Source: Hexactinellida sp. DTS-2022 | Lineage: Eukaryota; Porifera; Hexactinellida | Reading direction: 5' to 3' | Assembly: GCA_028753945.1 (NCBI GenBank) | Contig: JAPNXP010000002.1 | Coordinates: 4,216,001-4,280,000, forward strand | DNA: 64,000 nucleotides | Shown: positions 3,321 through 61,495 of the stretch, in pieces | Layout: the number at the start of each line of letters is the position of its first letter | Position numbering within the stretch: the first letter of the stretch is position 1 | Notes under the pieces: model-generated | What the model was told of the DNA's origin: nothing | The model's database searches: none | Seen by the model: only the letters and a program-made list of their open reading frames with translations | Program-made: the position numbers and the translations under genes

Positions 3321-3520
3321 TAAAAATTATTAGGTTCAGCTAGCAAATGAATCCCATCCTGGACATAATGACTCAGGAAACTTTCCTTGGGAGTAGAAAA
3401 GAGTCTCTTAAGAGTCTTAAGTAGTGGGAAACAATGTTTCGGGATTAGAGGAAAGTAATATGCAAAATTTGATGACTAATATTTTTGATTCCATCAAAAT
3501 TGTCATTATTGCAGCTACTA

Positions 3521-6500
3521 TTCATAATTAGAATAGTAATATTCGTACTCTGTACAGCTCTATCCTTGTCAGTACCGCCGTTGCAATTCATAATTAGAAT
3601 AGTAATATTCGTTTTGTATCTGCTCTATCCTTGTCAGTACCACCGTTGCAATTCATAATTAGAATAGTAATATTCGTTTTGTATCCGCTCTATCCTTGTC
3701 AGTACCACCGTTGCAATTCATAATTAGAATAGTAATATTCGTTTTGTATCCGCTCTATCCTTGTCAGTACCACCGTTGCAATTCATAATTAGAATAGTAA
3801 TATTCGTTTTGTATCTGCTCTATCCTTGTCAGTACCACCGTTGCAATTCATAATTAGAATAGTAATATTCGTTTTGTATCTGCTCTATCCTTGTCAGTAC
3901 CACCGTTGCAATTCATAATTAGAATAGTAATATTCGTTTTGTAACTGCTCTATCCTTGTCAGTACCACCGTTGCAATTTATAATTAGAATAGTAATATTC
4001 GTTTTGTATCTGCTCTATCCTTGTCAGTACCACCGTTGCAATTCATAATTAGAATAGTAATATTCGTTTTGTATCTGCTCTATCCTTGTCAGTACCACCG
4101 TTGCAATTCTTAATTAGAATAGTAATATTCGTTTTGTAACTGCTCTATCCTTGTCAGTACCACCGTTGCAATTCATAATTAGAATAGTAATATTCGTTTT
4201 GTATCCGCTCTATCCTTGTCAGTACCACCGTTGCAATTCATAATTAGAATAGTAATATTCGTTCTTTGTATCTGCTCTATCATTGTCAGTACCACCGTTG
4301 CAATTCATAATTAGAATAGTAATATTCGTTTTGTATCTGCTCTATCCTTGTCAGTACCACCGTTGCAATTTATAATTAGAATAGTAATATTCGTTTTGTA
4401 ACTGCTCTATCCTTGTCAGTACCACCGTTGCAATTTATAATTAGAATAGTAATATTCGTTTTGTATCCGCACTATCCTTGTCAGTACCACCGTTGCAATT
4501 TATAATTAGAATAGTAATATTCGTTTTGTATCTGCTCTATCCTTGTCAGTACCACCGTTGCAATTCATAATTAGAATAGTAATATTCGTTTTGTATCTGC
4601 TCTATCCTTGTCAGTACCACCGTTGCAATTCATAATTAGAATAGTAATATTCGTTTTGTATCTGCTCTATCCTTGTCAGTACCACCGTTGCAATTCATAA
4701 TTAGAATAGTAATATTCGTTTTGTATCCGCTCTATCCTTGTCAGTACCACCGTTGCAATTCATAATTAGAATAGTAATATTCGTTCTTTGTATCTGCTCT
4801 ATCATTGTCAGTATCCCGTTGCAATTCATAATTAGAATAGTAATATTCGTTTTGTATCTGCTCTATCCTTGTCAGTACCACCGTTGCAATTCATAATTAG
4901 AATAGTAATATTCGTTTTGTATCCGCTCTATCCTTGTCAGTACCACCGTTGCAATTCATAATTAGAATAGTAATATTCGTTTTGTATCCGCTCTATCCTT
5001 GTCAGTACCACCGTTGCAATTCATAATTAGAATAGTAATATTCGTTTTGTATCTGCTCTATCCTTGTCAGTACCACCGTTGCAATTCATAATTAGAATAG
5101 TAATATTCGTTTTGTATCTGCTCTATCCTTGTCAGTACCACCGTTGCAATTCATAATTAGAATAGTAATATTCGTTTTGTAACTGCTCTATCCTTGTCAG
5201 TACCACCGTTGCAATTTATAATTAGAATAGTAATATTCGTTTTGTATCTGCTCTATCCTTGTCAGTACCACCGTTGCAATTCATAATTAGAATAGTAATA
5301 TTCGTTTTGTATCTGCTCTATCCTTGTCAGTACCACCGTTGCAATTCTTAATTAGAATAGTAATATTCGTTTTGTAACTGCTCTATCCTTGTCAGTACCA
5401 CCGTTGCAATTCATAATTAGAATAGTAATATTCGTTTTGTATCCGCTCTATCCTTGTCAGTACCACCGTTGCAATTCATAATTAGAATAGTAATATTCGT
5501 TCTTTGTATCTGCTCTATCATTATCAGTACCACCGTTGCAATTCATAATTAGAATAGTAATATTCGTTTTGTATCTGCTCTATCCTTGTCAGTACCACCG
5601 TTGCAATTTATAATTAGAATAGTAATATTCGTTTTGTAACTGCTCTATCCTTGTCAGTACCACCGTTGCAATTTATAATTAGAATAGTAATATTCGTTTT
5701 GTATCTGCTCTATCCTTGTCAGTACCACCGTTGCAATTTATAATTAGAATAGTAATATTCGTTCTTTGTATCTGCTCTATCATTGTCAGTACCACCGTTG
5801 CAATTCATAATTAGAATAGTAATATTCGTTTTGTATCTGCTCTATCCTTGTCAGTACCACCGTTGCAATTCATAATTAGAATAGTAATATTCGTTTTGTA
5901 TCTGCTCTATCCTTGTCAGTACCACCGTTGCAATTCATAATTAGAATAGTAATATTCGTTTTGTATCCGCTCTATCCTTGTCAGTACCACCGTTGCAATT
6001 CATAATTAGAATAGTAATATTCGTTCTTTGTATCTGCTCTATCATTGTCAGTACCACCGTTGCAATTCATAATTAGAATAGTAATATTCGTTTTGTATCT
6101 GCTCTATCCTTGTCAGTACCACCGTTGCAATTTATAATTAGAATAGTAATATTCGTTTTGTATCTGCTCTATCCTTGTCAGTACCACCGTTGCAATTTAT
6201 AATTAGAATAGTAATATTCGTTTTGTATCTGCTCTATCCTTGTCAGTACCACCGTTGCAATTTATAATTAGAATAGTAATATTCGTTTTGTATCTGCTCT
6301 ATCCTTGTCAGTACCACCGTTGCAATTCATAATTAGAATAGTAATATTCGTTTTGTATCTGCTCTATCCTTGTCAGTACCACCGTTGCAATTCATAATTA
6401 GAATAGTAATATTCGTTTTGTATCTGCTCTATCCTTGTCAGTACCACCGTTGCAATTCATAATTAGAATAGTAATATTCGTTTTGTATCCGCACTATCCT

Positions 6501-9500
6501 TGTCAGTACCACCGTTGCAATTCATAATTAGAATAGTAATATTCGTTTTGTATCTGCTCTATCCTTGTCAGTACCACCGTTGCAATTTATAATTAGAATA
6601 GTAATATTCGTTTTGTATCTGCTCTATCCTTGTCAGTACCACCGTTGCAATTTATAATTAGAATAGTAATATTCGTTTTGTATCTGCTCTATCCTTGTCA
6701 GTACCACCGTTGCAATTTATAATTAGAATAGTAATATTCGTTTTGTATCTGCTCTATCCTTGTCAGTACCACCGTTGCAATTCATAATTAGAATAGTAAT
6801 ATTCGTTTTGTATCTGCTCTATCCTTGTCAGTACCACCGTTGCAATTCATAATTAGAATAGTAATATTCGTTTTGTATCTGCTCTATCCTTGTCAGTACC
6901 ACCGTTGCAATTCATAATTAGAATAGTAATATTCGTTTTGTATCCGCTCTATCCTTGTCAGTACCACCGTTGCAATTCATAATTAGAATAGTAATATTCG
7001 TTCTTTGTATCTGCTCTATCATTGTCAGTACCACCGTTGCAATTCATAATTAGAATAGTAATATTCGTTTTGTATCTGCTCTATCCTTGTCAGTACCACC
7101 GTTGCAATTTATAATTAGAATAGTAATATTCGTTTTGTATCTGCTCTATCCTTGTCAGTACCACCGTTGCAATTTATAATTAGAATAGTAATATTCGTTT
7201 TGTATCTGCTCTATCCTTGTCAGTACTACCGTTGCAATTTATAATTAGAATAGTAATATTCGTTTTGTATCTGCTCTATCCTTGTCAGTACCACCGTTGC
7301 AATTCATAATTAGAATAGTAATATTCGTTTTGTATCTGCTCTATCCTTGTCAGTACCACCGTTGCAATTCATAATTAGAATAGTAATATTCGTTTTGTAT
7401 CTGCTCTATCCTTGTCAGTACCACCGTTGCAATTCATAATTAGAATAGTAATATTCGTTTTGTATCTGCTCTATCCTTGTCAGTACCACCGTTGCAATTC
7501 ATAATTAGAATAGTAATATTCGTTTTGTAACTGCTCTATCCTTGTCAGTACCACCGTTGCAATTTATAATTAGAATAGTAATATTCGTTTTGTATCTGCT
7601 CTATCCTTGTCAGTACCACCGTTGCAATTCATAATTAGAATAGTAATATTCGTTTTGTATCTGCTCTATCCTTGTCAGTACCACCGTTGCAATTCTTAAT
7701 TAGAATAGTAATATTCGTTTTGTAACTGCTCTATCCTTGTCAGTACCACCGTTGCAATTCATAATTAGAATAGTAATATTCGTTTTGTATCCGCTCTATC
7801 CTTGTCAGTACCACCGTTGCAATTCATAATTAGAATAGTAATATTCGTTCTTTGTATCTGCTCTATCATTGTCAGTACCACCGTTGCAATTCATAATTAG
7901 AATAGTAATATTCGTTTTGTATCTGCTCTATCCTTGTCAGTACCACCGTTGCAATTTATAATTAGAATAGTAATATTCGTTTTGTAACTGCTCTATCCTT
8001 GTCAGTACCACCGTTGCAATTTATAATTAGAATAGTAATATTCGTTTTGTATCCGCACTATCCTTGTCAGTACCACCGTTGCAATTTATAATTAGAATAG
8101 TAATATTCGTTTTGTATCTGCTCTATCCTTGTCAGTACCACCGTTGCAATTCATAATTAGAATAGTAATATTCGTTTTGTAACTGCTCTATCCTTGTCAG
8201 TACCACCGTTGCAATTTATAATTAGAATAGTAATATTCGTTTTGTATCTGCTCTATCCTTGTCAGTACCACCGTTGCAATTCATAATTAGAATAGTAATA
8301 TTCGTTTTGTATCTGCTCTATCCTTGTCAGTACCACCGTTGCAATTCATAATTAGAATAGTAATATTCGTTTTGTATCTGCTCTATCCTTGTCAGTACCA
8401 CCGTTGCAATTCATAATTAGAATAGTAATATTCGTTTTGTATCCGCTCTATCCTTGTCAGTACCACCGTTGCAATTTATAATTAGAATAGTAATATTCGT
8501 TTTGTATCCGCTCTATCCTTGTCAGTACCACCGTTGCAATTCATAATTAGAATAGTAATATTCGTTTTGTATCCGCTCTATCTTTGTCAGTACCACCGTT
8601 GCAATTCATAATTAGAATGGTAATATTCGTTTTGTATCTGCTCTATCCTTGTCAGTACCACCGTTGCAATTCATAATTAGAATAGTAATAATCGTTTTGT
8701 ATCTGCTCTATACTTGTCAGTACCACCGTTGCAATTCATAATTAGAATAGTAATATTCGTTTTGTATCTGCTCTATCCTTGTCAGTACCACCGTTGCAAT
8801 TCATAATTAGAATAGTAATATTCGTTTTGTATCTGCTCTATCCTTGTCAGTACCACCGTTGCAATTCATAATTAGAATAGTAATATTCGTTTTGTATCCG
8901 CTCTATCCTTGTCAGTACCACCGTTGCAATTCATAATTAGAATAGTAATATTCGTTTTGTATCCGCTCTATCCTTGTCAGTACCATCCGTTGCAATTCAT
9001 AATTAGAATGGTAATATTCGTTTTGTATCTGCTCTATCCTTGTCAGTACCACCGTTGCAATTCATAATTAGAATGGTAATATTCGTTTTGTATCTGCTCT
9101 ATCCTTGTCAGTACCACCGTTGCAATTTATAATTAGAATAGTAATATTCGTTTTGTATCCGCTCTATCCTTGTCACTACCACCGTTGCAATTCATAATTA
9201 GAATGGTAATATTCGTTTTGTATCTGCTCTATCCTTGTCAGTACCACCGTTGCAATTCATAATTAGAATAGTAATAATCGTTTTGTATCTGCTCTATACT
9301 TGTCAGTACCACCGTTGCAATTCATAATTAGAATAGTAATATTCGTTTTGTATCTGCTCTATCCTTGTCAGTACCACCGTTGCAATTCATAATTAGAATA
9401 GTAATATTCGTTTTGTATCTGCTCTATCCTTGTCAGTACCACCGTTGCAATTCATAATTAGAATAGTAATAATCGTTTTGTATCTGCTCTATACTTGTCA

Positions 9501-10264
9501 GTACCACCGTTGCAATTCATAATTAGAATAGTAATATTCGTTTTGTATCTGCTCTATCCTTGTCAGTACCACCGTTGCAATTCATAATTAGAATAGTAAT
9601 ATTCGTTTTGTATCTGCTCTATCCTTGTCAGTACCACCGTTGCAATTCATAATTAGAATAGTAATATTCGTTTTGTATCCGCTCTATCCTTGTCAGTACC
9701 ACCGTTGCAATTCATAATTAGAATAGTAATATTCGTTTTGTATCCGCTCTATCCTTGTCAGTACCATCCGTTGCAATTCATAATTAGAATGGTAATATTC
9801 GTTTTGTATCTGCTCTATCCTTGTCAGTACCACCGTTGAGATTCATAATTAGAATGGTAATATTCGTTTTGTATCCGCTCTATCCTTGTCAGTACCACCG
9901 TTGCAATTCATAATTAGAATAGTAATATTCGTTTTGTATCCGCTCTATCCTTGTCAGTACCACCGTTGCAATTCATAATTAGAATAGTAATATTCGTTTT
10001 GTATCCGCTCTATCCTTGTCAGTACCACCGTTGCAATTCATAATTAGAATAGTAATATTCGTTTTGTATCCGCTCTATCCTTGTCAGTACCACCGTTGCA
10101 ATTTATAATTAGAATAGTAATATTCGTTTTGTATCCGCTCTATCCTTGTCAGTACCACCGTTGCAATTCATAATTAGAATAGTAATATTCGTTTTGTATC
10201 CGCTCTATCCTTGTCAGTACCACCGTTGCAATTTATAATTAGAATAGTAATATTCGTTTTGTAT
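3521..10264. repeat. 65-bp satellite array, about 104 copies
   Basis: Head-to-tail units of 65 bp begin TAATTAGAATAGTAATATTC and end in CCACCGTTGCAATTCA. Each unit contains a short inverted repeat, GAATA-gtaa-TATTC. Recurring variants are CATAATT/TATAATT/CTTAATT, GTATCTG/GTATCCG/GTAACTG, and a 67-bp form with GTTCTTTG and ATCATTG. The 67-bp form starts near 4261, 4783, 5499, 5761, 6023, 7000 and 7847. Variants recur in blocks, which shows multi-monomer duplication. Right-hand units carry their own variants (GAATGG, AATAATCG, ACCATCC). There are no unique spacers and no coding potential. Confidence 0.97.
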
Positions 10265-11747: not shown

Positions 11748-14237
11748 TTAAGTACACTTGTCACAAGTGAAAGATCCAGCTGAGACAATCTCGTATACTA
11801 CATCAGCGCAGTAGCAGTGGATCCAGTCTGAGCAGACATCACAGCATACCCATTGCGACTCAATCTTCTTCCCGATTCGTCTGAGTGCTACTGGGTCCGG
11901 CTCTCTCTTATCGCAAATCGCACAAAGGGTTGTCGACTCTTCTGAACATCTAGACTCATCACCAGAAGACGGACTAGAGACAGAAGGAGTACTACGCTCT
12001 TTGAGTTTTCTCTTCACGCCTGTAGAAACTCCTCTCGCCTGTCTGCCCCGTCCTCGGGCCTGCCTACCTCGGGCCTGCCTACCTCGGGCCTGCCTACCTC
12101 TCTTGCTTTGCGTGCTCTCAGCTCCATACTGTCCTCCTCTATAGCTACCCCCGCCTTCTGATTTCAGCAGTGCCTTTTCTCGGTGCTGCTTGACTAGCTT
12201 CATTCTTCTTCGTCGTCGTTGGAAATTAGATTTAATTTTGGCAGTACGGGAATATTGCAACTTATGAATACGGTCGATCATTGATTGGTAGGCATGTCGC
12301 GATGGAGACAGTCCAAGGTCGTACATAATCCCGAAGAGTGGCAGTTCTCCTTCATTGAAACTCAGAACAGAGATGGCAGTGCTAATCCTGATAGATTGAG
12401 GAGACACGTGCTTGTTCTTGGGGCAGAGGCACCATATCATGTTGTGCAGGGATTCGTTTGCATTCTGAGTTAGACCTAGCGTCAGATGGCTGCAGAACTC
12501 AGTCGTGGCATATTTGTTGAAGGCCTCGCGTACCTTCTGGATTTCAATAGGTGTAAAGGTGGTCAAAGTAGCTGGTGCTGTGGAACTAGATGGTTTATTC
12601 CAACGACACCATGTGTTCTCTCCGGTAGGACAGCCAGAATGAATTCCTGCCGCATGATCGAGGAGAATATGTAGATCTCGTGACAGCTTATCAGGTGTTG
12701 TCCCACGGTTCTGTAAGATAACAGTGGAATAGTTCGCGGCGATATAGTCAGCTTTCCATTCGGTGAGTTTGTGTTGTACATAGGTTTTTGTCTCCGTATT
12801 AGGCTTGATTTTCTTTAGGTTCTTCTTCAGACGCTTGGCAACATGTGTCAGACATTCTTCTTTTCGCACTTTGACAAGAGGGTAAGGATCAAGTGTTGTA
12901 ACGTGCTGAAAGGCCTTAGAGTCTCCGTCACCAACAAACACGGAATACACCAGGCGGTTCTTCTCCAAGCTGCGACCCCAGATCCTCTCGGCAGCTTCAG
13001 GCTCCATTGCTTGGGAAGATCCCGTGTAGTTTCTGTTGCAGTTCGGAGTATGACGCTCTAGCCACTTCTCGTACTCAGATGGTTTGTCCTTTTGTTTGTC
13101 TTCCGTCCAGATAGAGCACTTCTCGCATAGTCGACTCAAGATCTCGTAGTCCAGCACTTTCTTTGTGGAGGTAGAGATGGCAGCACCGAAACCTATATTG
13201 GAGTAGAAACCCCTGGTCTTCCAGGAGCTGTCGAAACTAATTGTTACATTGATAGCATTAGGCTCGGGAGATGGTTCTGAATCTAACTTCTGGTGTAGCT
13301 GATCAGCAGCTTCAGACATCGAAAGATTAACCGCTTTTTTTGTAACACCTTCAAGACGAATGGCATATCGAGATGGTATTGATTGAACTGGTGGTGGCAT
13401 ATCAAATATTGTAGCAATTTTATGTAAATCGCGCCATGACATACCGGTTGAATGTGTGGCCAGTACCGATCTCATTGTAACCTCATTCATGTCTCTGCTG
13501 GTAAACGGGACATTTACACAAGTATGGTGGCTGGGCATGTCCAGAGAACGTGAGGAAGGGAAGGTTGCGTGTTCTGAATGGCACGTCTGGCACTTGACTC
13601 TAAAGAATGTCTGCCAGCCGTGCTGCCATCTTTCTTCGTACAAGACGAGAGGACTATTGCATTTGTTGCATTGAAAGGTCGAGAATACCTCAGCTAAAAT
13701 GCCTACATCAAGGATCCTCATTCCAGTTGGTTTAGAAGCGGTCCTTAAAGAACTATCCTGAGATGTTTTAAATTCGACTGGTCGAGAATGGGTATATGGT
13801 GGAACTCGGAATTTAGAGGCATATCCTCGAATCGGGTGGGCTTTGAAGAATTTGTGTTTCTTCGGTTTGCTTATCTTGGAAATTGGGTCTGCAATCTTGA
13901 CTGATGGAAATTCTTTGGTATCAGGATTGCCAACAGTGTGTCTTCTGGCGTAGATTCGCTTGCGAGGGCGACCCCCACGTCTCCGGTTTCGAAAACTGTC
14001 TGTGACTTGAGATGCTATGTCAAGTGAAAAAAAGGACCGCGAAATCCCCGGTGTTGATGGAGGTATAGATGTTTGGGATGATGTTGGCACAGGTGGAGGA
14101 GGTGCTTGTGAAGCGATGGTAGCAACTGGGGGCTCGGTATCTGAAGGAAAGCTGTCCCGATCTGTTGAAATAGATTTGGGAATGAAATCATCAGGCTCAA
14201 TGAAAATCTGTCCATCGAAGCTTGACTCGCTCGACAT
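11748..14237 (-). CDS. Intact Mutator-like transposase with PHD finger, 829 residues
   Basis: Probable transposase of the same family as the gene at the left edge, acting on DNA in the nucleus. Residues 1-75 are low-complexity (Ser/Pro/Thr). An AT-hook-like basic patch lies at 86-99 (RRRGGRPRKR). A zinc-ribbon-like CxxC pair (C190/C193, C216/C219) opens the transposase domain. Candidate DDE residues are D336 (SFDSSW), D437 (VGDGDSKAF) and E595 (NANESLHN). Cys/His pairs (C371, C374, H396, C400) resemble a zinc knuckle. SVLSFNEG at 623-630 is a family motif, followed by Arg-rich 672-680 and four RQARG repeats at 715-736. The PHD finger spans C772 to C828 (CAIC, CCDVC, HCYC, CDKC). The ATG at 14237 is preceded by AT-rich DNA. 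No frame break is visible, so it could be active or domesticated. I did not find matching long TIRs around it. Confidence 0.87.
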   Translation of the reverse strand: MSSESSFDGQIFIEPDDFIPKSISTDRDSFPSDTEPPVATIASQAPPPPVPTSSQTSIPPSTPGISRSFFSLDIASQVTDSFRNRRRGGRPRKRIYARRHTVGNPDTKEFPSVKIADPISKISKPKKHKFFKAHPIRGYASKFRVPPYTHSRPVEFKTSQDSSLRTASKPTGMRILDVGILAEVFSTFQCNKCNSPLVLYEERWQHGWQTFFRVKCQTCHSEHATFPSSRSLDMPSHHTCVNVPFTSRDMNEVTMRSVLATHSTGMSWRDLHKIATIFDMPPPVQSIPSRYAIRLEGVTKKAVNLSMSEAADQLHQKLDSEPSPEPNAINVTISFDSSWKTRGFYSNIGFGAAISTSTKKVLDYEILSRLCEKCSIWTEDKQKDKPSEYEKWLERHTPNCNRNYTGSSQAMEPEAAERIWGRSLEKNRLVYSVFVGDGDSKAFQHVTTLDPYPLVKVRKEECLTHVAKRLKKNLKKIKPNTETKTYVQHKLTEWKADYIAANYSTVILQNRGTTPDKLSRDLHILLDHAAGIHSGCPTGENTWCRWNKPSSSTAPATLTTFTPIEIQKVREAFNKYATTEFCSHLTLGLTQNANESLHNMIWCLCPKNKHVSPQSIRISTAISVLSFNEGELPLFGIMYDLGLSPSRHAYQSMIDRIHKLQYSRTAKIKSNFQRRRRRMKLVKQHREKALLKSEGGGSYRGGQYGAESTQSKRGRQARGRQARGRQARGRGRQARGVSTGVKRKLKERSTPSVSSPSSGDESRCSEESTTLCAICDKREPDPVALRRIGKKIESQWVCCDVCSDWIHCYCADVVYEIVSAGSFTCDKCT

Positions 14238-51246: not shown

Positions 51247-53849
51247 AATTTAATCTCATAAAATTGGTTAGCTGTCGAGATAAATAATCTTATAATAATT
51301 GGTTAGCTGTCGAGATAAATAATCTTATAAAATTGGTTAGCAATCGAGATAAATAATCTTATAATAATTGGTTAGCTGTCAAGATAAACAATCTTATAAT
51401 AATTGGTTAGCTATCAGAAAAATAATCTTATAATAATTGGTTAGCTGTCGAGAAAATAATCTTATAATAATTGGTTAGCTGTCAAGATAAACAATCTTAT
51501 AATAATTGGTTAGCTATCAAGATAAATAATCTTATAATAATTGGTTAGCTATCAAGATAAACAATCATATAATAATTGGTTAGCTGTCGAGATAAATAAT
51601 CTTATAAAATTGGTTAGCAGTCGAGATAAATAATCATAAAAAATTGGTTAGCTATCAAGATAAACAATCTTATAATAATTGGTTAGCTGTCGAGATAAAT
51701 AATCTTATAAAATTGGTTAGTTGTCGAGATAAATAATCTTATAAAATTGGTTAGTTGTCGAGAAAATAATCTTATAATAATTGGTTAGCTGTCGAGAAAA
51801 TAATCTTATAATAATCGGTTAGCTGTCGAGATAAATAATCTTATAATAATTGGTTAGCTGTCGAGATAAATAATCTTGTAAAATTGGTTAGCTGTCGAGA
51901 TAAATAATCTTATAAAATTGGTTAGCTGTCGAGATAAATAATATTATAAAATTGGTTAGCTGTCGAGATAAATTATCATATAAAATTGGTTAGCTGTCGA
52001 GATAAATAAACTCATAATAATTGGTTAGCTGTCGAGATAAATAATCGTATAAATTGGTTAGCTGTCGAGAAAATAATCTTATAATAATTGATTAGCTGTC
52101 GAGATAAACAATCTTATAAAATTGGTAAGCTGTCGAGATAAATAATCTTATAATAATTGGTTAGCTGTCAAGATAAACAATCTTATAAAATTGGTTAGCT
52201 GTCGAGATAAACAATCTTATAAAATTGGTTAGCTGTCGAGAAAATAATCTTATAATAATTGGTTAGCTGTCGAGATAAAAAATCTTATAATAATTGGTAA
52301 GCTGTCGAGATAAATAATCTTATAATAATTGGTTAGCTGTCAAGATAAACAATCTTATAAAATTGGTTAGCTGTCGAGATAAACAATCTTATAATAATTG
52401 GTTAGCTGTCAAGATAAACAATCTTATAAAATTGGTTAGCTGTCGAGATAAACAATCTTATAAAATTGGTTACCTGTCGAGAAAATAATCTTATAATAAT
52501 TTGTTAGCTGTCGAGATAAATAATCTTATAAAATTGGTTAGCTGTCGAGATAAATAATCTTATAATAATTGGTTAGCTGTCGAGATAAAAAATCTTATAA
52601 TAATTGGTTAGCTGTCGAGAAAATAATCTTATAATAATTGGTTAGCTGTCGAGAAAATAATCTTATAATAATTGGTTAGCTGTCGAGATAAACAATCTTA
52701 TAAAATTGGTTAGCTGTCGAGATAAATAATCTTATAAAATTGGTTAGTTGTCGAGAAAATAATCTAATAATAATTGGTTAGCTGTCGAGAAAATAATCTT
52801 ATAATAATTGGTTAGCTGTCGAGATAAATAATCTTATAATAATTGGTTAGCTGTCGAGATAAATAATCTTAAAAAATTGGTTAGCTGTCGAGATAAACAA
52901 TCTTATAATAATTGGTTTGCTGTCGAGATAAACAATCTTATAAAATTGGTTAGCTATCAAGATAAACAATCTTAAAAAATTGGTTAGCTGTCGAGATAAA
53001 TAATCTTATAAAATTGGTTAGCTGTCGAGATAAATAATCTTATAAAATTGGTTAGTTGTCGAGATAAATAATCTTATAAAATTGGTTAGTTGTCGAGAAA
53101 ATAATCTTATAATAATTGGTTAGCTGTCGAGAAAATAATCTTATAATAATTGGTTAGCTGTCGAGATAAATAATCATATAAAATTGGTTAGCTGTCGAGA
53201 TAAATAATCTTATAAAATTGGTTAGCTGTCGAGATAAATAATCTTATAAAATTGGTTAGCTGTCGAGATAAATAATCTTATAATAATTGGTTAGCTGTCG
53301 AGATAAATAATCTTATAAAATTGGTTAGCTGTCGAGAAAATAATCTTATAATAATTGGTTAGCTGTCGAGATAAACAATCTTATAAAATTGGTTAGCTGT
53401 CGAGATAAATAATCTTATAATAATTGGTTAGCTGTCAAGATAAACAATCTTATAAAATTGGTTAGCTGTCGAGATAAACAATCTTATAAAATTGGTTAGC
53501 TGTCGAGATAAATAATCTTATTATAATTGGTTAGCTGTCGAGATAAAAAATCTTATAATAATTGGTAAGCTGTCGAGATAAATAATCTTATAATAATTGG
53601 TTAGCTGTCAAGATAAACAATCTTATAAAATTGGTTAGCTGTCGAGATAAACAATCTTATAAAATTGGTTACCTGTCGAGAAAATAATCTTATAATAATT
53701 GGTTAGCTGTCGAGATAAATAATCTTATAAAATTGGTTAGCTGTCGAGATAAATAATCTTATAATAATTGGTTAGCTGTCGAGATAAAAAATCTTATAAT
53801 AATTGGTTAGCTGTCGAGAAAATAATCTTATAATAATTGGTTAGCTGTC
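51247..53849. repeat. 34-bp minisatellite array, left part
   Basis: Units of about 34 bp carry ATTGGTTAGCTGTCGAGATA followed by AATAATCTTATAAA. Length variants of 32-36 bp arise from GAGAAAATAAT and TAATAATT forms. There are about 75 copies here. The array is cut by a transposon at CTGTC (53845-53849) and resumes in phase at 55656. Confidence 0.95.
53845..53849. repeat. 5-bp target site duplication, left
   Basis: CTGTC from the minisatellite unit, duplicated exactly at 55656-55660. The uninterrupted unit reads TTAGCTGTCGAG. Confidence 0.9.
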
Positions 53850-54563
53850 CACAGTGGCTTATGGCAGGGAATAGACCAATTATTGAGGTCTGTATTATTG
53901 TGTTTTCCAGCTTGTTTATTGTTATTTGATTGCCATAGTGTTCTAAATTTCAAATTTCCAGCTTATCTAAAGCCTACAAGTATATAAAAATTGCCTTCGA
54001 ACGTTGGAGTAATTTAGTTCCATTTGCGGTTTTGTTGGAATTTGAAATAAGGTATTCTACTTAGAGTCAATATAATTATGTTACTATGGCAATTTTTTGT
54101 GTGTACTAAATTTAGATTAGTAATATAAGTATTCTGAAACTGTATTTTTTAATCATAGTAGTGTAGCTTAAATATTTTTCCAAGAAATATTATTTTTAAT
54201 ATCACCTGTAAAATTAAACAAATTGTAACAAATCTAGATATTTGAAGTGTGCGGAAACACCATTATGCAAAGAAATGCAAATTGAATATACTTTCAGAAA
54301 ATCAATTAATGTATGTAGAGTTAGTATACAAAGTCACAACCTCCGGTTCGCTCCGGAAATAAAAATATATACTACATTCCAATGTGAGCATCCGATTACT
54401 ATGCAAGATTCCAAGTCTCAATTTGGTAACTGCAATTCAATATCCATTGTAACCACCAAGTTATTTGATTCTGCTGTTTCATATGTGATATATATTTTGT
54501 TTATGATAGTAGTGACCATAATTCGCGTCAATTTTCATTCATTTTTTTGTGTATTTATCTCAA

Positions 54564-55183
54564 ATGGCAGCTAGTGATCAGAATATCCCCAAGACCAGAC
54601 TTAATTTGGCAAAGATTTTGAAGTCGCATGAATTCAATATTCAAGCAGCATTGACTGAAATTGAAGAGTCTGTTGGAATAAATAATAGTGCCTTGCAATC
54701 ATTGCTATGGAGGGTTCGTAATAATGTGAGGAAAGGAAGGAAGTCAGTTGACGAATTGGATGGAGAATGGTGGAATTCTCAAATCGATTTTAATTATGGA
54801 CTTTAAAGAGTCGTCTATCAACTCCAGCTGACTTTACTACGTCCTCTGTGCCTGATGAAAGTAGACCTATCCATAGAAAGAGTCTCGATAGTGTTTATTT
54901 GAAACATCAGAGATCACGCCTCTCTAAATTACTGGAGTGCATTAAAGAAATTTCAGAAATTGAAGACATGTCAGAAATTTCAATCGCAGCTATTTCTTTA
55001 CAATTGGTATCCAATCAAGACGATAACCGTCAGTTAGCTCAGATTTCCAAAAAGATTGCCTATGCTGGAGATTTTAGTGATGCGATAACACGAAAAAAGT
55101 TCCGATTGATAAGTAGTTGTTTCTTCTTGATTATTTGGAAATTGGTAAAAGAAAATATACGAGCTTACGTCAGCTGTAAATAG
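54564..55183 (+). pseudogene. Frameshifted coding remnant inside the Transib-like element
   Basis: ATG at 54564 opens MAASDQNIPKTRLNLAKIL and runs 80 codons to TAA at 54804. Shifting frame there continues sensibly as KSRLSTPADFTTSS, then SVYLKHQRSRLSKLLECIK and QLAQISKKIAYAG, ending at 55183. The two parts together give about 205 residues that are helical and charged, with a conserved-looking Leu-rich block around RSRLSKLLECI. I see no DDE core or zinc finger, so this is at most an N-terminal domain of a larger protein, or a short accessory ORF. The frameshift near 54803 and the missing core argue for a relic. Relation to a transposase is inferred only from its position within the element. 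Confidence 0.5.
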
Positions 55184-55340
55184 TGTATTATATAATTAAT
55201 AAACCTATTTTGAATGAATTAAGGCAATAAGTAAATTAATTTTCTAAGCAATTCCTAGGTACAGTCGACACATAATTGCAAAAAATTAATTTAAGGGGTT
55301 AAATTAATTAATACCAGAAATTAAAAAAAAACACGGTTGT

Positions 55341-55597
55341 ACGACGTCATAACTAATACATCTGGAGCCATAAATAATTTTTTTATATGTCAAAAGATGC
55401 ATAGGCATCGATAACCCATATGTAATTAATTCATAGTACAACGCAAACTCGAAAGATATAGCGGATTTCAGAATTTCAAAAAAATAAGTAACATCATCAT
55501 GACGTCATAACAGACAAAGTATGAGGTGTAAATAAATTTTGATATGACCAAACATTTTCTAAACATCGATAACCCATATGTAATTAATACATTATAA
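55341..55597. repeat. Two direct repeats of about 95 bp in the element's right part
   Basis: Copies near 55341-55440 and 55500-55597 share GACGTCATAAC and ATCGATAACCCATATGTAAT followed by TAAT. Subterminal direct repeats of this kind may serve as transposase-binding sites, which is inference. Confidence 0.7.
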
Positions 55598-55655
55598 TAG
55601 GCTAAAGTGCACACAGATATCTATTCCCTACCAACTGCGATTTTAAGCCACTGTG

Positions 55656-56132
55656 CTGTCGAGATAAATAATCTTATAAAATTGGTTAGCTGTCGAGATA
55701 AATAATCTTGTAAAATTGGTTAGCTGTCGAGATAAATAATCTTATAAAATTGGTTAGCTGTCGAGATAAATAATCTTATAATAATTGGTTAGCTGTCAAG
55801 ATAAACAATCTTATAAAATTGGTTAGTTGTCGAGATAAATAATCTTATAAAATTGGTTAGTTGTCGAGAAAATAATCTTATAATAATTGGTTAGCTGTCG
55901 AGAAAATAATCTTATAATAATTGCTTAGCTGTCGAGATAAATAATCTTATAAAATTGGTTAGCTGTCGAGATAAATAATCTTATAAAATTGGTTAGCTAT
56001 CGAGATAAATAATCTTATAATAATTGGTTAGCTGTCGAGATAAATAATCTTATAAAATTGGTTAGCTGTCGAGATAAATAATCTTATAAAATTGGTTAGC
56101 TGTCGAGATAAATAATCTTATAATAATTGGTT
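55656..56132. repeat. 34-bp minisatellite array, right part
   Basis: Continuation of the array after the transposon, beginning with the duplicated CTGTC in correct phase. About 14 units, ending at ATTGGTTGCC, where another TIR element begins. Confidence 0.93.
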
Positions 56133-59540: not shown

Positions 59541-59629
59541 CGGCGCCCCTGGTACAGCTAAAGAGGATTGGGATCAATATCTTTGGTTTGCATAATTAGT
59601 GTGCACGAAAAGTAATTAACCCAAAACAT

Positions 59630-61495
59630 ATTCAAAATCTGCTATAGCTGTAAGAGACACGTAACTGTAAATGAGGCAAAGCTAGGTAACATAATTACCG
59701 GTGCTGAGTAACTATAGACTGATAAACTATAATACAAGATCAGAATAATAGTACCAAATAACCTATTCAAAATCTGCGCTAGCTGTGAGAGAACCGTAAC
59801 TGTAATGAGGCAAGCTGGGTAACATAATTACCGGTGCTGAGTAACTATAGACTGATAAACCATAATACAAGATCAGAATAATAGCACCAACTAACCTATT
59901 CAAAATCTGCTCTGGCTGTGAGAGAACCGTAACTGTAATGAGGCAAAGCTGGTAACATAATTACCGGTGCTGAGTAACTATAGACTGATAAACTATAATA
60001 CAAGATCAGAATAATAGTACCAACTAACCTATTCAAAATCTGCGCTAGCTGTGAGAGAACCGTAACTGTAATGAGGCAAAGCTGGTAACATAATTACAGG
60101 TGCTGGGTACCTATAGACTGATAAACTATAATACAAGATCAGAATAATAGTACCAACTAACCTATTCAAAATCTGCGCTAGCTGTGAGAGAACCGTAACT
60201 GTAATGAGGCAAGCTGGGTAACATAATTACCGGTGCTGAGTAACTATAGACTGATAAACTATAATACAAGATCAGAATAATAGTACCAACTAACCTATTC
60301 AAAATCTGCGCTAGCTGTGAGAGAACCGTAACTGTAAATGAGGCAAAGCTGAGTAACATAATTACCGGTGCTGAGTAACTATAGACTGATAAACTATAAT
60401 ACAAGATCAGAATAATAGTACCAACTAACCTATTCAAAATCTGCGCTAGCTGTGAGAGAACCGTAACTGTAATGAGGCAAGCTGGGTAACATAATTACCG
60501 GTGCTGAGTAACTATAGACTGATAAACTATAATACAAGATCAGAATAATAGCACCAACTAACCAATTCAAAATCTGCGCTAGCTGTGAGAGAACTGTAAC
60601 TGTAAATGAGGCAAAGCTGGGTAACATAATTACCGGTGCTGCGTAACTATAGACTGATAAACTATAATACAAGATCAGAATAATAGCACCAACTAACCTA
60701 TTCAAAATCTGCGCTAGCTGTGAGAGAACTGTAACTGTAAATGAGGCAAAGCTGGCAACATAATTACCGGTGCTGAGTAACTATAGACTGATAAACTATA
60801 ATATAAGATCAGAATAATAGCACCAACTAACCTATTCAAAATCTGCTCTGGCTGTGAGAGAACCGTAACTGTAATGAGGCAAAGCTGGGTAACATAATTA
60901 CCGGTGCTGAGTAACTATAGACTGATAAACTATAATACAAGATCAGAATAATAGCACCAACTAACCTATTCAAAATCTGCGCTAGCTGTGAGAGAACCGT
61001 AACTGTAATGAGGCAAAGCTGGGTAACATAATTACCGGTGCTGAGTACCTATAGACTGATAAACTATAATACAAGATCAGAATAATAGCACCAACTAACC
61101 TATTCAAAATCTGCTCTGGCTGTGAGAGAACCGTAACTGTAATGAGGCAAAGCTGGGTAACATAATTACCGGTGCTGAGTAACTATAGACTGATAAACTA
61201 TAATACAAGATCAGAATAATAGCACCAACTGACCTATTCAAAATCTGCTCTAGCTGTGAGAGAACTGTAACTGTAATGAGGCAAAGCTGGGTAACATAAT
61301 TACCGGTGCTGGGTAACTATAGACTGATAAACTATAATACAAGATCAGAATAATAGCACCAACTAACCTATTCAAAATCTGCGCTAGCTGTGAGAGAACC
61401 GTAACTGCAATGAGGCAAAGCTGGGTAACATAATTACCGGTGCTGAGTAACTATAGACTGATAAACTATAATACAAGATCAGAATAATAGTACCA
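59630..61495. repeat. 133-bp tandem array, about 14 copies
   Basis: Units of 133-135 bp contain CTATTCAAAATCTGC, GTGAGAGAACCGTAACTG, ATAATTACCGGTGCTGAG and AAGATCAGAATAATAG. Variants include CGCTAGC/CTCTGGC and GTACC/GCACC. Hydrophobic 91-codon minus-strand frames (ILILYYSLSVYSY) arise from the repeat and are not called as genes. Confidence 0.95.

Follow-up and report, generated by a model that had tools for sequence, protein, structure and literature searches.

The window analysed here (64,000 nucleotides of DNA from Hexactinellida sp. DTS-2022) contains an 1806 bp transposable element at positions 53850-55655, which is probably an internally deleted Transib that would be mobilized in trans by the RAG1-like transposase of full-length, single-gene copies and whose short and long ends would be paired as in the 12/23 rule of V(D)J recombination. 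The basis for this reading, all of it at the level of sequence, is the transposase family, the ends, a 5 bp target-site duplication (TSD), an unbroken gene in a full-length relative, its DDE residues, the amplified deletion copies, the asymmetry of the ends and the co-variation of a second box found at both ends.

The element interrupts a 34 bp minisatellite array (51251-56132). The flanks read ...GGTTAGCTGTC on the left and CTGTCGAGATAAATAATC... on the right, with the pentamer CTGTC at 53845-53849 and again at 55656-55660; of the duplication lengths tested (2-12) only 5 matches. Removing the element with one CTGTC restores a normal minisatellite unit; in the array on both sides, TTGGTTAGCTGTCGAG is present 55 times and CTGTCGAGATAAATAATCTTATAA 30 times. 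Reading inwards, both termini give CACAGTGGCTTA, beginning with the heptamer CACAGTG at 53850-53856 (plus strand) and at 55649-55655 (minus strand). The sequence CACAGTGG is found at two sites only in the window, and these are the two ends of the element; a chance origin of the ends is excluded because 1.8 kb copies elsewhere in the genome, 99-100% identical to it, have the same ends. Direct reading and computation thus agree with the initial annotation on the element, its coordinates, its length, its ends and its duplication.

The host assembly (112 Mb, 18 contigs) was searched with the element for further copies, a search that the initial annotation had advised for its terminal inverted repeats (TIRs), and yielded at least 45 DNA matches (40 of 88 candidates scored). 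At least 14 of these, the window copy included, are 1.8 kb copies with the same ends and 99-100% identity (mean pairwise identity of 99.5%, minimum of 99.1%; n = 14). The window copy, which runs 5' to 3' on the plus strand in the orientation of the transposase, is a non-autonomous derivative 95-96% identical to a related 3326 bp copy, L025, from which it differs by the absence of L025 positions 1327-2844 (1518 bp). The deletion junction lies at 55175/55176 and has the identical sequence in all 14 of the 1.8 kb copies examined. Given the common junction, the mean identity and the 1518 bp loss relative to L025, we regard the window copy as one of a family of deletion copies that was amplified recently and would be moved in trans by the transposase of full-length copies. 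The initial annotation had seen no RAG1-like core in this copy; the catalytic core is deleted, but N-terminal remnants of the transposase are kept. These are an open frame of 80 amino acids from the N-terminus (54564-54803, plus strand) and, in another frame, a remnant of residues ∼82-206 that includes the nonamer-binding-like region (54806-55192, plus strand). Two other members of the window family were noted: L035, a 456 bp copy with an exact TSD that is reduced to 153 bp from the 5' end and 305 bp from the 3' end, and L028 (99.4-99.6% identical to L025), in which two insertions increase the length to 8163 bp and which carries a 727-codon frame on the opposite strand.

An autonomous relative had been predicted to exist elsewhere in the genome, and L025 fits this prediction: it is full-length and has an unbroken gene for a RAG1/Transib-type transposase, with HzTransib from Helicoverpa zea (PDB entries 6pqn and 6pqx) and not a RAG1-like (RAG1L) protein as the best match. 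Alignments place the DDE triad at Asp281, Asp383 and Glu636. The first catalytic aspartate is that of a DGLDG motif, which is unchanged in all rows of the alignment that extend to it (13 of 17). Loss of the second was considered and rejected: Asp383 (in IDGKM) is the second aspartate and is invariant in the alignments, and an SPLHSY motif does not occupy that position. The N-terminal domain is homologous in sequence to the nonamer-binding domain (NBD) of RAG1, using profiles built from nine and from 14 families; comparison of the folds is, taken alone, only suggestive. The HzTransib chain that has been solved aligns from residue 176 of the L025-type proteins onwards, and the NBD-like domain therefore lies outside it. 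The core fold and the triad are common to both, whereas the distance from the CxxC to the LH motif is 63-64 residues in 17 of 17 rows and, by manual count, about 29 in HzTransib, making HzTransib ∼35 residues shorter here. The α11-α12 segment of the zinc-binding domain is present as judged by its length and its alignment to RAG1L rather than by its structure.

The C-terminal zinc knuckle of L025 is Cx2Cx3GHx5C, one residue longer than the Cx2Cx3GHx4C of CTT1. It is missing or degenerate in several families, with L059, L062, L064, L069 and L070 lacking it. In most of the families with a knuckle, a TTA follows the GGN next to the heptamer; the ends of these knuckle-less families (with L066 standing in for its relative L064) do not have it. 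Natural variation may here be showing that the C-terminal tail reads the bases beside the heptamer, although the pattern was seen by eye, in a small sample and among related families.

The initial annotation had placed the element in the Transib/ProtoRAG class. A RAG-like transposon of the ProtoRAG type, which would also encode a RAG2-like protein, would fit the perfect heptamer of the recombination signal sequence (RSS) and a zinc-knuckle tail resembling that of RAG1L, but L025 has a single ATG-started open reading frame of at least 100 amino acids, with about 720 bp before it and 450 bp after it and therefore no room for a RAG2-like gene, and its best match is again HzTransib. We regard this alternative as very improbable. 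A search of the genome for RAG2 with PF03089 gave no match, but neither did the 14 control genomes, so that its silence carries no weight. The transposase, the CAC ends and the 5 bp TSD all support the Transib half of the earlier assignment; with no RAG2-like gene in the element, the class by these features is Transib and not ProtoRAG.

TSDs were scored for 40 end pairs: 14 deletion copies, eight other copies of the window family and 18 elements from other families (L054 was left out, its left flank being cut). An exact 5 bp duplication is present in 31 of the 40. L016 and L017 have one mismatch each and L018 has two, L055 matches at 6 bp and L063 at 4 bp, and L024, L029, L033 and L056 show no clear repeat where element and flank meet. 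No end pair among the 40 matches at 7-10 bp, and therefore none matches at the 8 bp of hAT. The main rival put forward by the initial annotation, a hAT-like or other element with a 5 bp TSD, is contradicted by the Transib transposase encoded by the full-length copy as well as by these counts; a hAT origin is rejected on both transposase type and TSD length, and we consider the chance that any such element is involved to be negligible. The expected length of five was thus borne out on alignment, but the expected GC-rich target preference was not: the 31 exact TSDs have the motif NRNYN and a G+C content of 38.7%, compared with 34.3% in the fetched loci.

The window element belongs to a radiation. 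At least 70 matches to the transposase protein were found in the genome, with 62 of 1024 candidates scored. L025 and 12 other loci, the latter at 43-58% identity, have frames of 711-757 codons without a stop. Clustering of 34 transposase loci at 85% identity of the core segment gave 22 groups, which we count as 21 families because L041, a group of its own in the clustering, is a window-family copy with a broken frame (it lies at the same place as L027, which is 95.3% identical to L025 in DNA).

The heptamer CACAGTG is found at nearly all of the ends, with a single change in a few copies, and is followed by a second, GGAAATAGG-like box. In the window family 10 bp separate the heptamer from this box at the 5' end and 20 bp at the 3' end. 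In the window element the short end consists of the heptamer, a 10 bp spacer (53857-53866) and the box GGGAATAGA (53867-53875), all on the plus strand, and the long end, on the minus strand, of the heptamer, a 20 bp spacer (55629-55648) and the same GGGAATAGA (55620-55628). Each of the 22 window-family copies that retain both ends combines a short end with a long one. For the statistics we used one representative per family (13 families in the pooled comparison, 14 in the others) and single-base shuffles, excluding loci with only one end. Pooling 13 families, the match between the two ends is 56.4% at an offset of +9 and 45.6% at +10, whereas 500 shuffles, scored at 37 offsets, never exceeded 44.0%; the remaining offsets reach z values of up to 3.6. 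The best offset is 9 or 10 in 12 of 14 families (in L042, L047 and L070 by a margin of one match), compared with a mean of 0.94 and a maximum of six families in 2000 shuffled runs. L043 and L045 have other best offsets; the motif positions of L043 fit, bringing the families with a one-turn offset to 13, and L045 fits by eye only. In 13 of the 14 families the end 5' of the gene is the short one. The exception is L065 (579-4357, minus strand), a reversed, decayed copy that possibly underwent an internal inversion; as it has its short end 3' of a broken gene, it was entered according to end type.

These elements might also be true Transibs in which the asymmetry is passive, the box being a promoter or silencing signal, or a leftover from a single insertion of ∼10 bp in a common ancestor, with no role in the pairing of ends. 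The offset and polarity may indeed have descended from a common ancestor across the radiation. Shared descent of a passive box does not, however, predict boxes that diverge between families yet still match at the two ends of any one family. The similarity of the boxes is 10.4 of 14 within a family and 7.3 of 14 across families, a difference reached by none of 20 000 permutations; the boxes at the two ends thus change in concert, as expected of a site bound by a protein. The position of the box also argues against a passive role, as it is constant to within about 1 bp while the spacer sequence varies (L058, 4 bp off its near relative L060, departs from this). We therefore view the passive explanation as unlikely, albeit less so than the other rivals. 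At some short ends (for example L042, L045, L059 and L062) an A run (AAAAAAT) follows the box at about positions 28-36 and brings to mind the nonamer of the RSS with its A-rich core.

For an internally deleted Transib moved in trans, full-length copies elsewhere in the genome, if active at present, would supply the transposase that recognizes and moves the ends of the window element. In the most likely mechanism a transposase dimer would hold one short and one long end together, and the catalytic core (Asp281, Asp383 and Glu636 in L025) would nick at the CACAGTG heptamer. By analogy to HzTransib and RAG, excision would proceed by hairpin formation on the flank, and the ends would be joined 5 bp apart in the target. 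The N-terminal nonamer-binding-like domain may grip the second box; as heptamer and box are further apart at the 3' end than at the 5' end, by about one helical turn, a short-long pair would assemble best.

Asymmetric TIRs, the α11-α12 segment, the CTT1 zinc knuckle and an NBD equivalent have been described for Subgroup I Transibs, Transibs have been reported from ctenophores and asymmetric ends have been proposed to be ancestral (Tao et al., 2022; PMC9435367). The elements studied here have equivalents of all four features and likewise no RAG2, and they appear to fit the description of Subgroup I. They differ in their number, with at least 21 families spread over 34 loci of one genome, in the near-constancy of the one-turn offset, and in that several families lack the zinc knuckle. 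A few insect Transibs, Drosophila Transib5 and Anopheles Transib2/N1-N3, are described in PMC8355894 as having 12/23-like ends; these are also short-long and about one helical turn apart, but the members are few, whereas here the pattern holds for 12 of 14 families, with an offset of 9-10 and not 11. Amphioxus ProtoRAG has CAC ends, bipartite asymmetric TIRs, NBD* and CTT* in common with these elements, but has 27/31 bp spacers and a RAG2-like gene (PMC8289069). Vertebrate RAG1 and the 12/23 RSSs share the CACAGTG heptamer, a second box at spacings about one turn apart and a homologous NBD; the box here, however, is GGAAATAGG-like and not ACAAAAACC as in jawed vertebrates, the spacers are about 10 and 20 bp, no RAG2 is present in the element and the short end has the 5' polarity given above. 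Invertebrate RAG1L-RAG2L enzymes are expected to be relatively insensitive to end asymmetry, according to PMC7204232.

The 12/23 rule orders the assembly of antibody and T-cell receptor genes, and it is an open question if the rule arose together with RAG or came down from the ancestral transposon. It is possible, and we suggest this tentatively, that the Transib/RAG lineage had as its ancestral recognition code a one-turn asymmetry sensed by a domain of the nonamer-binding type; such a 12/23-like rule would be independent of RAG2, older than the vertebrates and kept in one animal genome by many diverging families with co-changing boxes. The 13 stop-free frames, with their RSS-like heptamer and a co-varying second box at a near-constant one-turn offset, form a natural series in one genome that would allow the pairing rule to be tested in a RAG2-free enzyme and boxes to be matched to domains from natural variation. 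Asymmetric ends were already known; what appears to be added here is the single-genome scale, the near-constancy of the offset, the polarity and the co-variation of the box. In the host assembly two nuclear-receptor DNA-binding domains and five collagen IV NC1 matches score above their cut-offs, with none in the 14 control genomes, and these indicate an animal; as sponges have two nuclear receptors, a sponge is plausible. Literature searches found nothing on Transib in sponges, Amphimedon included (titles and abstracts), and no paper combining Transib with spacer and helical turn.

Tandem repeats make up more than half of the window. Besides the 34 bp array they comprise a 30 kb array of 23/46 bp units with higher-order repeats (16396-47004), a 65 bp array (3520-10264) and a 134 bp array (59625-61495). 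Two Mutator-like (PF20700) transposase frames lie at 107-2188 and 11748-14237, one of which has a weak C-terminal match to a PHD finger, under the Pfam cut-off.
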